From the NCBI RefSeq assembly GCF_900108185.1, contig NZ_FNVA01000001.1, forward strand, positions 62,001 to 126,000: a stretch of 64,000 nucleotides of DNA, read 5' to 3'. How positions within the stretch are numbered: position 1 is the stretch's first letter; every line of letters starts with the position of its first letter. The notes below the pieces were generated by a model. The model was not told where the DNA came from. It did not search any database and worked only from the letters and a program-made list of their open reading frames with translations. Source of the DNA: Bryocella elongata (GTDB lineage Bacteria; Acidobacteriota; Terriglobia; Terriglobales; Acidobacteriaceae). Made by a program: the position numbers and the translations under genes. This document shows, in pieces, positions 24,891 to 30,068 of the stretch.

Positions 24891-25409
24891 TCAGCGGGCC
24901 GGTTGTTCGACGTGGACGACCAGGTAGGTGATCTGGTGGCCGGGGGCGAGGATCCACTGGTGGGGAACGCCGGCGGCGAAGTGGATGACGTCGCCGGTGG
25001 TGACCGCTACGCTGGCGCCATTGCGGATGGAAGGGCCGCGAACCTCGTGGGGCGCGGTTCGTTTGGGGTCGACGACCTCGCCGCCGTAGATCAGGGTGGC
25101 ATCCCCGCTCTGGACGACCATGACGTCGGCTGTGGCCTCGTGGACCTCGGCGATGCCGCTCTCGGTGTGCACGGTGATGGAGAGGGCGTGATCGCCGAAG
25201 TCATCCTTGTGCTTGATGCCGAGGGAAGAGACTCCGTGAGGCCAGATGGTTACGGGGTCGGCATTGGCGGGCGGAGGCGGGACGCGCTCTGCCGCTCGGG
25301 CGTCGTGCCTGCCGGAGCGGTCGATGGCTGAGGTGACGAGCCTCCAACCGAAAAGGAGCACGAGGATGGTGACGAGCCAGATGAGCAGGTGTTTGACTGT
25401 GGGGTGCAT
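24891..25409 (-). CDS. Membrane-anchored cupin protein
   Basis: 172 residues. Residues 8-27 are a membrane anchor (LLIWLVTILVLLFGW). A cupin follows at about 65-165 (VHEATADVMVVQSGDATLIYGG, then GDVIHFAAGVPHQW), with a His/Glu pair and a late His available for metal. Substrate unknown. It lies 134 bp downstream of the HNL-like cupin on the same strand and may be the last gene of that unit. Confidence 0.75.
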   Translation of the reverse strand: MHPTVKHLLIWLVTILVLLFGWRLVTSAIDRSGRHDARAAERVPPPPANADPVTIWPHGVSSLGIKHKDDFGDHALSITVHTESGIAEVHEATADVMVVQSGDATLIYGGEVVDPKRTAPHEVRGPSIRNGASVAVTTGDVIHFAAGVPHQWILAPGHQITYLVVHVEQPAR

Positions 25410-25543: not shown

Positions 25544-25939
25544 CTACACGGTGTACTGCTCGTCGGAGACGGGTTCGAGCCAGTCTACGGCCTTGCCGTC
25601 AACGGATTCCGTGATCGCGATATGCGTCATGCCAACGGTGGCGGAGGCGCCGTGCCAGTGCTTCTCCCCGGGCTCGAAGAAGACGACGGTTCCGGGAGTA
25701 ACTTCCTGGATGGATTCGCCATCCTTCTGGACCCAGCCGAGTCCCTGGGTGATGACGATGGTCTGACCGGAGGGATGCGTGTGCCAGCGTGTGCGGGCCC
25801 CAGGTTCGAATGTCACGATGCCGCCGTTGGAGTGCCGGCCGCCGTCCGCAGGGAAGAGGGAATCGATGCGCACGTTTCCGGTGAACCAATCTGCGGGTCC
25901 AACGACGGAGGGCGTGGCGCCAGTGCGGGTGATCTTCAT
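25544..25939 (-). CDS. Cupin hydroxynitrile-lyase-like protein
   Basis: 131 residues, the length of the manganese cupin hydroxynitrile lyases known from Granulicella tundricola and Acidobacterium capsulatum. Shared segments, as I recall them, include GPADWFTG, RIDSLF, VTFEPGARTRWHTHPSGQT, PGEKHWHG and GKAVDW. The metal ligands fall at the same numbers as in the Granulicella enzyme: H53, H55, Q59 and H94, with H96 next to them. Those enzymes cleave and form (R)-cyanohydrins in vitro; the natural substrate is unclear. It lies 81 bp downstream of a CMD protein and behind an SDR gene, a common acidobacterial and proteobacterial trio. Confidence 0.85.
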   Translation of the reverse strand: MKITRTGATPSVVGPADWFTGNVRIDSLFPADGGRHSNGGIVTFEPGARTRWHTHPSGQTIVITQGLGWVQKDGESIQEVTPGTVVFFEPGEKHWHGASATVGMTHIAITESVDGKAVDWLEPVSDEQYTV

Positions 25940-26020: not shown

Positions 26021-26839
26021 CTATTTCTTCCGGCTTTCAAAGACATCCTTGACCACGGGTAGCGCGGAGAAGGCGCAGGGCCAACCCGCATAGAAGGCGA
26101 TGTGCGTCAGAACTTCAGATGCCTGTGACTGCGTGAGGCCGTTGTCCATGGCACGGTTGAGGTGATACGGAATCTGCGCAGTCTGTCCGTTTGCAATGAG
26201 GGCGCTTACGGTGACGAGGCTGCGATCGCGAGGCGCGAGTGCGGGTCGAAGCCAGAGATCGCGAAACAGCACGTCCGTTGTGTTCTGCACGAGGCCGGGT
26301 GAGACCGTGCCGAAGTTGTTGCCAACCTGGGTAGCTCTCTTCGCCTCGGCGTCCTCATTGAGGGGCAGCAGAGGCTCCTTCGCAGGCGGAAGCTGGTCGA
26401 TGCCGATCCTTCGTTGCGAGAAGATGTCTTTGGCGACGGCGACGGCGGCCATGGCGTTTCCCCAGCCTGCATAAAAGGCGAGGTGCGTGATGATCTCGGA
26501 GAGCTCCGCAGGCCTCACTCCGTGGTCGAGCGCAAGCGCGAAGTGGAACGGCATCTCGGCCGTCTGGAGGCCGGCGATGAGTGCTGCCACGGTCAAGATG
26601 CTGCGGTCCCGGAGGGTGAGTTCGGGGCGTTGCCAGACCTTGCCCAGCAGGGCTTCCTTCGTGTATCGCTCCAATGCGGGCGACACGGCGCGAAGATCGT
26701 CATCGCTCACGGAATTTGCGGGCAGCTTCAGACTGCTTGATACGGACATGGTTGTCTCCTCTGCGATGGCGGGCACGGCTGCGCACAGCGGGGCTGCAAG
26801 CAGGGCCATGCCCGTCATGATGAAATCGCGGCGATGCAT
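26021..26839 (-). CDS. Exported two-domain carboxymuconolactone decarboxylase family protein
   Basis: 272 residues. The N-terminus MHRRDFIMTGMALLAAPLCAA looks like a Tat-type signal with cleavage near AIA. Two CMD repeats follow, each with RDR(S)xxTVxALI and an EIITHLAFYAGWGNAM or EVLTHIAFYAGWPCAF segment. The usual CxxC of AhpD-like members is absent, so peroxidase activity is unlikely. It lies 15 bp after the SDR stop and 81 bp before the HNL-like cupin start, so an operon of SDR, CMD and cupin is likely. Confidence 0.88.
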   Translation of the reverse strand: MHRRDFIMTGMALLAAPLCAAVPAIAEETTMSVSSSLKLPANSVSDDDLRAVSPALERYTKEALLGKVWQRPELTLRDRSILTVAALIAGLQTAEMPFHFALALDHGVRPAELSEIITHLAFYAGWGNAMAAVAVAKDIFSQRRIGIDQLPPAKEPLLPLNEDAEAKRATQVGNNFGTVSPGLVQNTTDVLFRDLWLRPALAPRDRSLVTVSALIANGQTAQIPYHLNRAMDNGLTQSQASEVLTHIAFYAGWPCAFSALPVVKDVFESRKK

Positions 26840-26854
26840 GGCGGGTATCTTGGT

Positions 26855-27622
26855 CTAGCGCATCACGTAGCCGCCATCGACCGAGATCGACTGGCCGGTG
26901 ACGTAGCTTGCGTGATCGCTGCAGAGCCACAGAACCGCGTCGGCGATCTCTTCCGGACGCCCGAGGCGCTTCATGGGGACGAAGGTCTGAAGCATCCTGT
27001 CGAGCTCGGGGCCTTGTCCTTCGGCGATCATCTTGTCCGACATGGGTGTCTGGATCATGCCGGGGCAGACGTCGTTGACGCGAATGCCGCGGGTGGCATA
27101 CTCCAGCGCTGCGCTCTTGGTGAAGCCGATGACGCCGTGCTTGGCGGCGTGATAGGTGCCACGCTGGTTGCCACCGATGAGGCCTCCGAGCGAAGAGCAG
27201 TTCACGATGGCTCCGCTGCCTTGCTGGCGCATGACCTGGAGCTCGAACTTCATGCAGCTCCACACGCCGCGGAGGTTTACTGCCATCACGCGGTCGTAGT
27301 CGTCGCGAGGCGAATCGGCGGTTTCGGCCAGAACATTCTGTATGCCGGCGTTGTTGTAGGCCGCATCGAGGCGGCCGAAGGTGGCGACGGTCTGCGCCAC
27401 CATGGCTTCGACCTGCGCATCGTCGGAGACGTCGCAGGTGACGGCGAGAGTGTTGTAGCCCTCATCGGCAAGCTGCTTTGCGGCAGCCTGAACCTCTTTC
27501 GCATTCCAGTCAGCGAGTACGACGGATGCGCCGGCCTTCGCAAATGCCTGTGCGGTGGCTAGTCCCAGACCGGATGCAGCGCCGGTGACGAGAGCTACCT
27601 TGTTCTCAAACGAGATGTTCAT
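26855..27622 (-). CDS. Short-chain dehydrogenase/reductase
   Basis: 255 residues from MNISFENKVALVTGAASGLG; GGGAG lies 12 bases upstream. Cofactor motif TGAASGLG, NNAG at about 90, S144, Y157 and K161 (YHAAKHG) make a complete classical SDR. D38 after the second strand favours NAD(H). PGMIQTPMSD and the C-terminal TGQSISVDGGYVMR are typical of 3-oxoacyl/sorbitol-type members. It is first in the likely SDR-CMD-cupin operon and divergent from a LysR gene. Confidence 0.9.
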   Translation of the reverse strand: MNISFENKVALVTGAASGLGLATAQAFAKAGASVVLADWNAKEVQAAAKQLADEGYNTLAVTCDVSDDAQVEAMVAQTVATFGRLDAAYNNAGIQNVLAETADSPRDDYDRVMAVNLRGVWSCMKFELQVMRQQGSGAIVNCSSLGGLIGGNQRGTYHAAKHGVIGFTKSAALEYATRGIRVNDVCPGMIQTPMSDKMIAEGQGPELDRMLQTFVPMKRLGRPEEIADAVLWLCSDHASYVTGQSISVDGGYVMR

Positions 27623-27778
27623 GTGGTCTCTTCTCCCTGAAGCATGTGGTTCGTGGTTTGGCCGAGGCAAACGGTGTTCCCGGCTGAGGCACGTGTCGGG
27701 TGCGTACAGGAAGTATGATGTCCGGAATCCAGAGACGAAGGCATCCCGGGGGCATACGGTGATGAGTATGATTCATGA

Positions 27779-28666
27779 ATGATCAGGGAGAATCTGGCCG
27801 AGCTTGCCGCCTTCGCTACCGTCGCGGAAGAGCGTAGTTTTACCCGGGCAGCTTCGCGTCTGGGGATTTCGCAGTCGGCGTTGAGTCACTCGATCCGAGG
27901 CCTTGAAAAGAGGCTTGGGGTGCAGTTGCTGGCACGCACGACGCGTAGCGTCTCCGCGACGGCAGCCGGAGCGGATCTGCTGCGAGAGCTTGCGCCTGCG
28001 CTGGAGCGTATCCGCGGCGCGGTGGCAGAGACGATGCAGCAGAGGGAGCGGCCTGCGGGCCGGATCCGGCTGATCATCCCGCGCACTGCAACGGAGATGG
28101 TGATTCTGCCGAAGCTGGCGGCGTTCGCCCGGGCTTACCCGGAGATTGTGCTGGAGGTGACGTCTTCGAACGATCCCGTCGATCTTGTCGAGGGGGAATA
28201 CGACGCTGGGGTGCAATTGGGGGAGTTCATTCAACGGGACATGATTGCTGTCCGGGTGACGAAGGAGATGCGACTCGCGGTGGTGGGATCTCCGGCATAC
28301 TTCGAATCGAATCCGGTGCCTAAGCGGCCTCAGGATCTGAAAGACCACGCCTGCATCGGATTCCGTTTCAGCAAGAGCCTGTATCGTTGGGAGTTTGAGA
28401 AGGGGCGCAAGGCGCTTACGGTGAGCCCGCAGGGGCCGGTGTCCTTCGACGATCCGGACCTTGTGATTCAGGCCGTGCTCGATGGAGTTGGGATCGGCAC
28501 TGCGATGGAAGAGACGTTGAAGGGGCTGATCGCGAAGGGGCGCCTGGTGCAGGTGCTGAGGGACTGGTGCCCGCCGTTCCCGGGATACTTTCTCTATTAC
28601 CCCAGCCGAAGAAATCAGCCCGCTGCGCTGGCGTCGCTGATTGCGACTCTGCGGCTTACCGATTGA
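27779..28666 (+). CDS. LysR family transcriptional regulator
   Basis: 295 residues with the LysR HTH at about 1-62 (FATVAEERSFTRAASRLGISQSALSHSIRGLEKRLGVQLLARTTR) and an effector domain similar to that of regulators of SDR/cupin genes. It is divergent from the SDR gene. The 156-bp gap contains the 10-bp palindrome ATTCATGAAT (27771-27780) overlapping its own start, a possible autoregulation site. It probably controls the SDR-CMD-cupin genes. Confidence 0.9.
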   Translation: MIRENLAELAAFATVAEERSFTRAASRLGISQSALSHSIRGLEKRLGVQLLARTTRSVSATAAGADLLRELAPALERIRGAVAETMQQRERPAGRIRLIIPRTATEMVILPKLAAFARAYPEIVLEVTSSNDPVDLVEGEYDAGVQLGEFIQRDMIAVRVTKEMRLAVVGSPAYFESNPVPKRPQDLKDHACIGFRFSKSLYRWEFEKGRKALTVSPQGPVSFDDPDLVIQAVLDGVGIGTAMEETLKGLIAKGRLVQVLRDWCPPFPGYFLYYPSRRNQPAALASLIATLRLTD

Positions 28667-28721: not shown

Positions 28722-30068
28722 TTACTCGGCATCTTTGAAGTTGGCGGGTTTGATGACCTTCATGACTTCGTGTTTCTTGATGTAGTCGGGGTCGATGGTA
28801 ACTCCTACGCCGGGGCCGGTGGGGACGGTGATGATGCCGTCGGCATCGGAACGGAGGGTGCTGGTGGGGCAGGTGTAGGGGAGGTCGTTATTGAATTCCT
28901 TGAACTCGTGGTAGGGGCCGGAGTTTGTGATGGCTGAGACGAAGTGCATCATGTACACGTAGCCGAGGCCGGTGCTGGAGATATGCGGGATACATTGCTT
29001 GCCTAACACGGCGGCCATGCGGGCGACCTTCATGCAGCGGACCATGCCGCCGAAGTAGAACATGTCCTGCTGCACGATGCCGACGTTGTTATGCGCGAGG
29101 ATGTGGCGGAAGTTCCAGGTGGAGGGTTCCTGTTCGCCGAGGGCGATGGGGATCTGGAGGGCGTCGGCGACTTGTTCGAGGCCGTCGTAGTCGTCGAAGG
29201 GGACCGGCTCCTCGTAGAAGGCGTAGTTATATTCCTGCATGATCTTGCCGATGCGGATGGCTTCGGCGGGGGCGTAGCTGCCGTTGGAGTCGGCGGAGAT
29301 GACCATGTCGTCGCCGAAGGTTTTGCGGACCATGGGGATGAGGCGCGCGGAGCGGTCGGGCGGGGTTTCGACGTGGGACATGCGGCCGCCGAGCTTGAAC
29401 TTGATGGCCCTGGCGTGGGAGATGGCGACGTCGCGCTGGAGGTGGTCGATGGTCTCCTCGGGCGTGATGTAGCGCTCACCGTTGGCCTGGTAGACGTTGA
29501 TCTTCGGGTTGGTGATCCTGTCGCCGATGAGCAGGCCGATGGGCTTGTTGGCAAGCTTGCCGAAGAGGTCGAGGATGGCGAACTCGAGGGTGGCCAGCGG
29601 GACGAACATGGCCATGCCGGTGGCCTTGTAGTTGGACTGGTAGACCATGCAGAGGTCGAGTTGCTTCTCCAAATCGCGTGCGTCTTCCTGGAGGAAGAAG
29701 GGCGCGATACGGTCCATGAAGATGGGCCAGAGCGAGGCCATCTGCTGGGCGTTGGAGATGGAGATGCCTTCGGCGCCGTCTTTGGAGCGGACACGGCAGA
29801 GCCAGGACTTCTTGTAGTGGAGAAGCTCGATGGAGTCGAGGATGACCGGGTTGGGGAAGAGGTCGCGGCGGAAGACGGGGAGGTCGCGCGCGGCGTCGAG
29901 CCTGGCGAAGTTGGCCTCGATCTCGGCGGGCGAAGGGCGGCGATGCGGCGGCCAGGGATGCTTGGCTGCGTGAGGCTGAGCGAAGGCTTCGGCAGCGGGG
30001 GCAGTTGCGAGGGCAGCGGCGGTGGCGAGAGTGTTGCGGAGCAGGTCGCGGCGGGTATGGGCAGGCAT
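28722..30068 (-). CDS. Exported mandelate racemase/enolase superfamily protein
   Basis: 448 residues. A twin-arginine signal (TRRDLLRNTLATAAALATAPAAEA) is followed by the enolase-superfamily capping domain and a TIM barrel. Metal ligands are visible as Asp in ISADSN, Glu in YEEP and Glu in GEQE; KFKLGG supplies a lysine on the second barrel strand. The substrate is probably a sugar acid or similar but cannot be named. It is convergent with the LysR gene across 55 bp. Tat export of an enolase-superfamily enzyme fits folded, metal-loaded secretion. Confidence 0.85.
   Translation of the reverse strand: MPAHTRRDLLRNTLATAAALATAPAAEAFAQPHAAKHPWPPHRRPSPAEIEANFARLDAARDLPVFRRDLFPNPVILDSIELLHYKKSWLCRVRSKDGAEGISISNAQQMASLWPIFMDRIAPFFLQEDARDLEKQLDLCMVYQSNYKATGMAMFVPLATLEFAILDLFGKLANKPIGLLIGDRITNPKINVYQANGERYITPEETIDHLQRDVAISHARAIKFKLGGRMSHVETPPDRSARLIPMVRKTFGDDMVISADSNGSYAPAEAIRIGKIMQEYNYAFYEEPVPFDDYDGLEQVADALQIPIALGEQEPSTWNFRHILAHNNVGIVQQDMFYFGGMVRCMKVARMAAVLGKQCIPHISSTGLGYVYMMHFVSAITNSGPYHEFKEFNNDLPYTCPTSTLRSDADGIITVPTGPGVGVTIDPDYIKKHEVMKVIKPANFKDAE

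Follow-up and report, generated by a model that had tools for sequence, protein, structure and literature searches.

Cupin hydroxynitrile lyases (HNLs) are useful biocatalysts that have been applied in the synthesis of chiral cyanohydrins, and why bacteria carry them seems unsettled; among open-access publications, judged by titles and the beginnings of abstracts and with subscription papers mostly outside the sample, none addressed the native role or the operons of these enzymes. The question of what such a protein does for its host is raised by an intact open reading frame on the minus strand of the window (the whole 64,000-nucleotide stretch of DNA from the soil bacterium Bryocella elongata analyzed here), which runs from position 25939 to 25544 and encodes a single-domain protein of 131 amino acids. 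Its start codon is preceded by a fair ribosome-binding site (GAAAGGACACC-ATG), and a single copy of the cupin family was seen in the B. elongata genome.

The protein can be placed securely in the manganese-dependent (R)-HNL family of cupins on the combined basis of its sequence, a curated model, the metal-ligand residues, and the predicted fold. It is equal in length to the HNL of Granulicella tundricola (GtHNL; PDB 4bif) and 60% identical to it, which bears out the length and the long matching stretches described in a first-pass annotation, and the phmmer match between the two (E value of 3.8e-52) is far beyond chance. The NCBIfam model for (R)-mandelonitrile lyase (NF049940), whose cutoff of 140 bits is a curated equivalog threshold, scored the protein at 179.2 bits over residues 3 to 130; none of 14 named control genomes reached that cutoff, with weaker matches appearing in 10 of them. 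Acidobacterium capsulatum supplies another bacterial cupin HNL (AcHNL), listed as such in passages of two publications (PMC8892092 and PMC8097096). An AlphaFold model of the B. elongata protein, built from a 15-row alignment, had a pLDDT of 82.3, with residues 1 to 14 under 50, and the PDB structures closest to it were 4bif, 8oz8, and 4uxa (TM score of 0.89), all of them GtHNL. TM1010 of Thermotoga maritima (PDB 2f4p, a cupin-like "hypothetical protein") shares the fold and the ligand motif, with 37 to 39% identity in the structural match, but is far more remote than GtHNL (87.5 bits versus 179 for 4bif).

Alignment with GtHNL shows that H53, H55, Q59, and H94, the putative ligands that we take to be the Mn-binding residues, are present in the protein at the positions given in the first-pass annotation. 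Together with H96, H106, V42, and F44, they were kept in all 177 distinct family sequences, including that of the window, although the invariance of the histidines is partly built into this sample, as 80 named loci were found through the motifs ART[AR]WHTH or [GEN]E[KR]HWHGA; family sequences outside those 80 came from model or protein searches. The first-pass annotation had also singled out H96, beside H94, as setting the protein apart. This can be ruled out, since H96 is present in the 4bif chain as well as throughout the aligned family, and the title of PDB 8oz8 describes an H96A variant of GtHNL.

The suggestion that the pocket differs from that of known HNLs was right for positions 40 and 110 and wrong for V42, F44, T50, and H106, which are unchanged and which the protein shares with GtHNL along with its length, the cupin fold, the four ligands, and H96. 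Substitutions relative to GtHNL (residue of the B. elongata protein first) are G40/A, R51/A, S57/L, I61/L, I63/V, T110/Q, and F87/W, and the protein also has its own loop at residues 30 to 38, with DGGRHSN at 32 to 38. Two of the three engineered positions of GtHNL are thus naturally changed, A40 to G and Q110 to T, with V42 kept; the 4uxa chain, described as an "improved variant," departs from 4bif at 40, 42, and 110. A passage of a review names A40H/V42T/Q110H as an active GtHNL variant (PMC8097096). Because an enzyme engineered at 40, 42, and 110 is still active, these positions do not define the family, and a natural branch that is changed at 40 and 110 offers a ready-made test of their role.

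That branch is distinct from the GtHNL orthologs. Copies of the family scoring above the NF049940 cutoff were present in 38 of 61 genomes (that of B. elongata and its relatives), and 29 of the 48 other family sequences aligned were 72 to 88% identical to GtHNL. The B. elongata cupin clusters instead with seven copies that are 77 to 86% identical to it, and all eight are just 58 to 65% identical to GtHNL. These eight Acidobacteriaceae sequences, here called clade B (the window, L032, L034, L035, L036, L048, L206, and L208), fell on one side of a branch with an SH-aLRT support of 100 in a tree that was built from the 177 distinct proteins after exclusion of seven pocket columns and that contained GtHNL-like rows without the GtHNL chain itself. 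The 177 rows were what remained of 183 once two duplicates and four rows with less than 45% identity to GtHNL or fewer than 100 columns had been removed. An earlier 127-row tree that did include the GtHNL chain, and in which many forks were unresolved, set the six members of clade B known at that time apart with a support of 93. Clade B is changed at positions 40, 51, 87, and 110 and in the 30-to-38 loop: G40 was found in seven of its eight members, R51 in all eight versus 1 of 169 other sequences, and T110 in all eight versus 4 of 169. One genome (G004) holds both a clade B cupin and a GtHNL-like cupin, a pattern more in keeping with paralogy or gene transfer than with divergence of an ortholog. 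Close copies are patchy in the phylum, with matches at an E value of 1e-40 in 35 of 297 genomes sampled. The description of the protein as a new member of the cupin HNL group therefore stands at the level of the family, fails where it would group the protein with the orthologs of GtHNL, and implies a lyase activity that we infer.

In the window, the cupin gene is the last of a minus-strand run of three. A two-domain protein of the carboxymuconolactone decarboxylase (CMD) family (PF02627), with an N-terminal RR leader, is encoded 81 nucleotides upstream of the cupin at 26021 to 26839, and a short-chain dehydrogenase/reductase (SDR) is encoded a further 15 nucleotides upstream at 26855 to 27622, its start having been set by eye at the ATG at 27622 instead of the listed TTG at 27670. 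A LysR-type regulator at 27779 to 28666 on the plus strand is divergent from the SDR gene; its best NCBIfam model was YafC, at 159.7 bits, far below the cutoff of 470. This LysR protein is a likely candidate regulator of the SDR-CMD-cupin run. No aldo/keto reductase (AKR) or ADH gene accompanies the LysR, SDR, and CMD genes at the window locus. On the other side, 134 nucleotides after the cupin stop codon, the minus-strand gene at 24891 to 25409 encodes a weakly cupin-like protein that appears by eye to be membrane anchored; its Cupin_2 score of 24.9 bits is under the cutoff of 27.2, phmmer found no relative of it in the 80 named loci, and it probably lies outside the cupin system. By eye, the leader of the CMD-family protein (MHRRDFIMTG...) is Tat-like, and the protein would then be exported; no leader was seen in the SDR or the cupin, and no AhpD-type Cys pair was seen in the CMD-family protein.

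Much of this arrangement recurs in clade B. Granulicella rosea DSM 18704 (L048), whose cupin is 82% identical to that of the window, has the same SDR-CMD-cupin order, the same pocket signature, and a divergent LysR gene, and differs in having genes for Mo-hydroxylase-type subunits (FAD and 2Fe-2S) just beyond LysR. The cupin of another genome of the same family (L206) is 86% identical and likewise shares the pocket signature and the adjoining SDR and CMD genes. Across the clade, SDR and CMD genes were near the cupin in seven of the eight loci and an AKR gene was near it in five (within 3.5 kb or 1.5 kb); the exception, L036, has AKR, LysR, and Mo-hydroxylase-type subunit genes in place of SDR and CMD. 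Two of the loci (L034:8001-10423 and L035:4290-6720) carry two differing cupin paralogs of the family in one gene run, with SDR, CMD, DUF2255, and AKR genes alongside and an AraC_N regulator opposite. Elsewhere in the family, at L047:7065-7454, a cupin copy whose similarity ends at about residue 59 lies just upstream of an intact copy.

A link between the pocket residues and a CMD neighbor was considered and is a lead at most. Among the 177 distinct cupins, a CMD gene lay within 1.5 kb of 8 of 12 T110 cupins versus 18 of 165 others and of 12 of 18 G40 cupins versus 14 of 159 others; in a smaller set of 110 cupins, with the limit at 3.5 kb, the counts were 9 of 10 T110 cupins versus 13 of 100 others. 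The plain Fisher P value for T110 and CMD is 2.5e-5; the tree shows just five T110 changes, and the independent pairs on supported branches, two or fewer, cannot reach significance, while the independent pairs for G40 and CMD go in either direction. Thirty of the loci (L244 to L273) came from a T110, CMD-linked query, and none of the 12 T110 rows is among them.

The wider family allows the neighborhood to be judged over many more loci. With each species represented by one genome, a scan yielded at least 590 relatives, of which the best 80, from nine phyla as judged by title, were used as named loci; 79 of these were usable (L123 had no usable focal open reading frame), and five more are missing from the count of operon partners. 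AKR genes stood out: 25 of the 79 loci had one within 3 kb of the cupin (30 genes), compared with four genes at 3 to 6 kb. The number expected within 3 kb was about 1.05, given the 327 AKRs counted across the 137.7 Mb of 20 named-loci genomes, and in those 20 loci alone an AKR was near the cupin in 10, with 0.28 expected; the 20 were chosen by hand, not at random, and their background was counted with Pfam, whereas the AKRs near the cupin were counted with a model built from them. A Pfam control on neighboring genes gave the same result for AKR, with 24 of 268 near genes versus 2 of 140 far genes (P = 0.002). Differences for SDR (19 versus 5; P = 0.19), LysR (17 versus 3; P = 0.09), and zinc ADH (11 versus at most 2, this family not being one of the 25 listed for far genes; P = 0.23 if 2 is assumed) were not significant. 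The near set of this control started from the 299 genes that lie one or two positions away from the cupin, of which 22 of at least 700 amino acids were excluded and 268 (120 plus 148) of the remaining 277 were used, with 9 omitted; the far set was 140 genes drawn at random from 240, and the gene calls include some shadow open reading frames.

Against the 3-to-6-kb shell, ADH, SDR, CMD, and LysR genes were enriched 1.5- to 2-fold, and genes for Mo-oxidoreductase subunits showed no enrichment (2Fe-2S, 0 near and 7 far; FAD, 2 near and 3 far). An AKR, ADH, SDR, CMD, or Mo-hydroxylase (Mo-oxidoreductase) gene was found within 3 kb at 50 of the 79 loci, compared with 23 of the 79 beyond 3 kb; the 29 named loci left over from the 50 had none of these genes that close. 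At 18 further loci in the phylum of the window (L156 to L173), 10 had AKR, ADH, CMD, or AraC_N within six genes of the cupin, two had SDR alone, and six had none of AKR, ADH, SDR, CMD, and AraC_N over that span. The scanned SDRs and AKRs scored under the cutoffs of all except generic models; for the ADH partner in L118, the closest model was the aldehyde reductase Ahr, at 307 bits and below the cutoff of 470. The AKR/ADH/SDR operons under LysR or AraC_N regulators presumably resemble the YqhC system of Escherichia coli. In Bradyrhizobium, open reading frames of about 700 amino acids directly before the cupin were labeled CMD (L064:2785-4881 and a 700-amino-acid frame in L096); in L064, a neighbor also scores as MFS, so that this may be a transporter-CMD fusion.

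This family neighborhood points to carbonyl metabolism over cyanide chemistry, and it is because of these neighbors, the AKRs above all, that an aldehyde role is favored. With confidence a little better than even, we read the B. elongata protein as a Mn-cupin that acts on carbonyl carbon-carbon bonds, probably with some HNL activity, and is natively tied to aldehyde metabolism. As a small member of the GtHNL family, presumably located in the cytosol, this Mn(II)-cupin would use its metal to polarize the oxygen of a carbonyl or alkoxide, with a conserved histidine serving as acid/base while the adjacent carbon-carbon bond is made or broken. By homology, carbonyl addition or its reverse would be the reaction expected of a Mn(II) site with these conserved histidines. 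Variants of AcHNL and GtHNL also catalyze nitroaldol addition to aldehydes, as stated in a passage of a review (PMC8097096), so that the active site of the known enzymes handles aldehydes and a stabilized carbanion in general. Judging from context, the cupin may work in the cell together with the SDR and CMD-family protein in a pathway that converts a carbonyl compound (aldehyde or ketone) and is controlled by the divergent LysR regulator, with cyanohydrin cleavage as a side activity or just part of the cupin's role. In vitro, the protein would likely show a degree of HNL-type activity toward cyanohydrins resembling (R)-mandelonitrile, at a level altered by G40 and T110, and measurable HNL activity in a clade B cupin seems slightly more probable than its absence.

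A true HNL with a cyanohydrin as its natural substrate (one derived from plants, for instance), the neighboring reductases clearing the released aldehyde, would account for the identity to GtHNL, the full ligand set, and the score on the curated mandelonitrile lyase model, and the aldehyde-reducing neighbors of the family would suit its product. We nevertheless think this unlikely, as HNL activity has been tuned at three positions of which two are changed here and as two of the four nitrilase-family (PF00795) matches in the B. elongata genome, used as queries, found no homolog at an E value of 1e-3 among open reading frames of at least 85 amino acids from 105 loci.

Cupins are functionally very diverse, and the protein could be another metal-dependent enzyme on the same scaffold, such as an isomerase, a dioxygenase, or the agent of a decarboxylase-like step beside the CMD protein, with no useful lyase activity; its place in a well-supported separate clade, the changes at 40, 51, 87, and 110 and in the loop, and the close SDR and CMD partners in most of clade B would all fit. 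Such a departure is nonetheless improbable given the constancy of the ligands, H96, H106, V42, and F44 across the family, even in a partly motif-selected sample, and given that GtHNL tolerates change at 40 and 110 in the active triple variant named in the review passage (PMC8097096). A noncatalytic small-molecule-binding cupin, serving as a sensor or carrier, is very improbable: the AraC-type ligand-binding cupin model PF02311 does score above its cutoff (29.8 versus 21.1 bits), but the metal site is complete, which argues for catalysis, and Pfam shows cupin models only in the 131 amino acids, with no fused DNA-binding domain.

The reading of the protein as a carbonyl-acting Mn-cupin of aldehyde metabolism can be extended, tentatively and with somewhat less than even confidence, to the family: bacterial Mn-cupin "HNLs" may at heart be aldehyde-metabolism enzymes in regulator-controlled AKR/ADH/SDR operons, their HNL activity being promiscuous, and clade B (G40/R51/T110) may be a specialized branch partnered with an SDR and with a CMD-family protein that is exported. 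The recurring neighborhood makes the native role open to induction and deletion tests. Beyond the LysR gene, the minus-strand frame at 28722 to 30068 encodes an enolase-superfamily protein resembling sugar-acid dehydratases whose leader appears by eye to be Tat-like (MPAHTRRDLLRN...), which is to our knowledge unusual for an enzyme of this kind.
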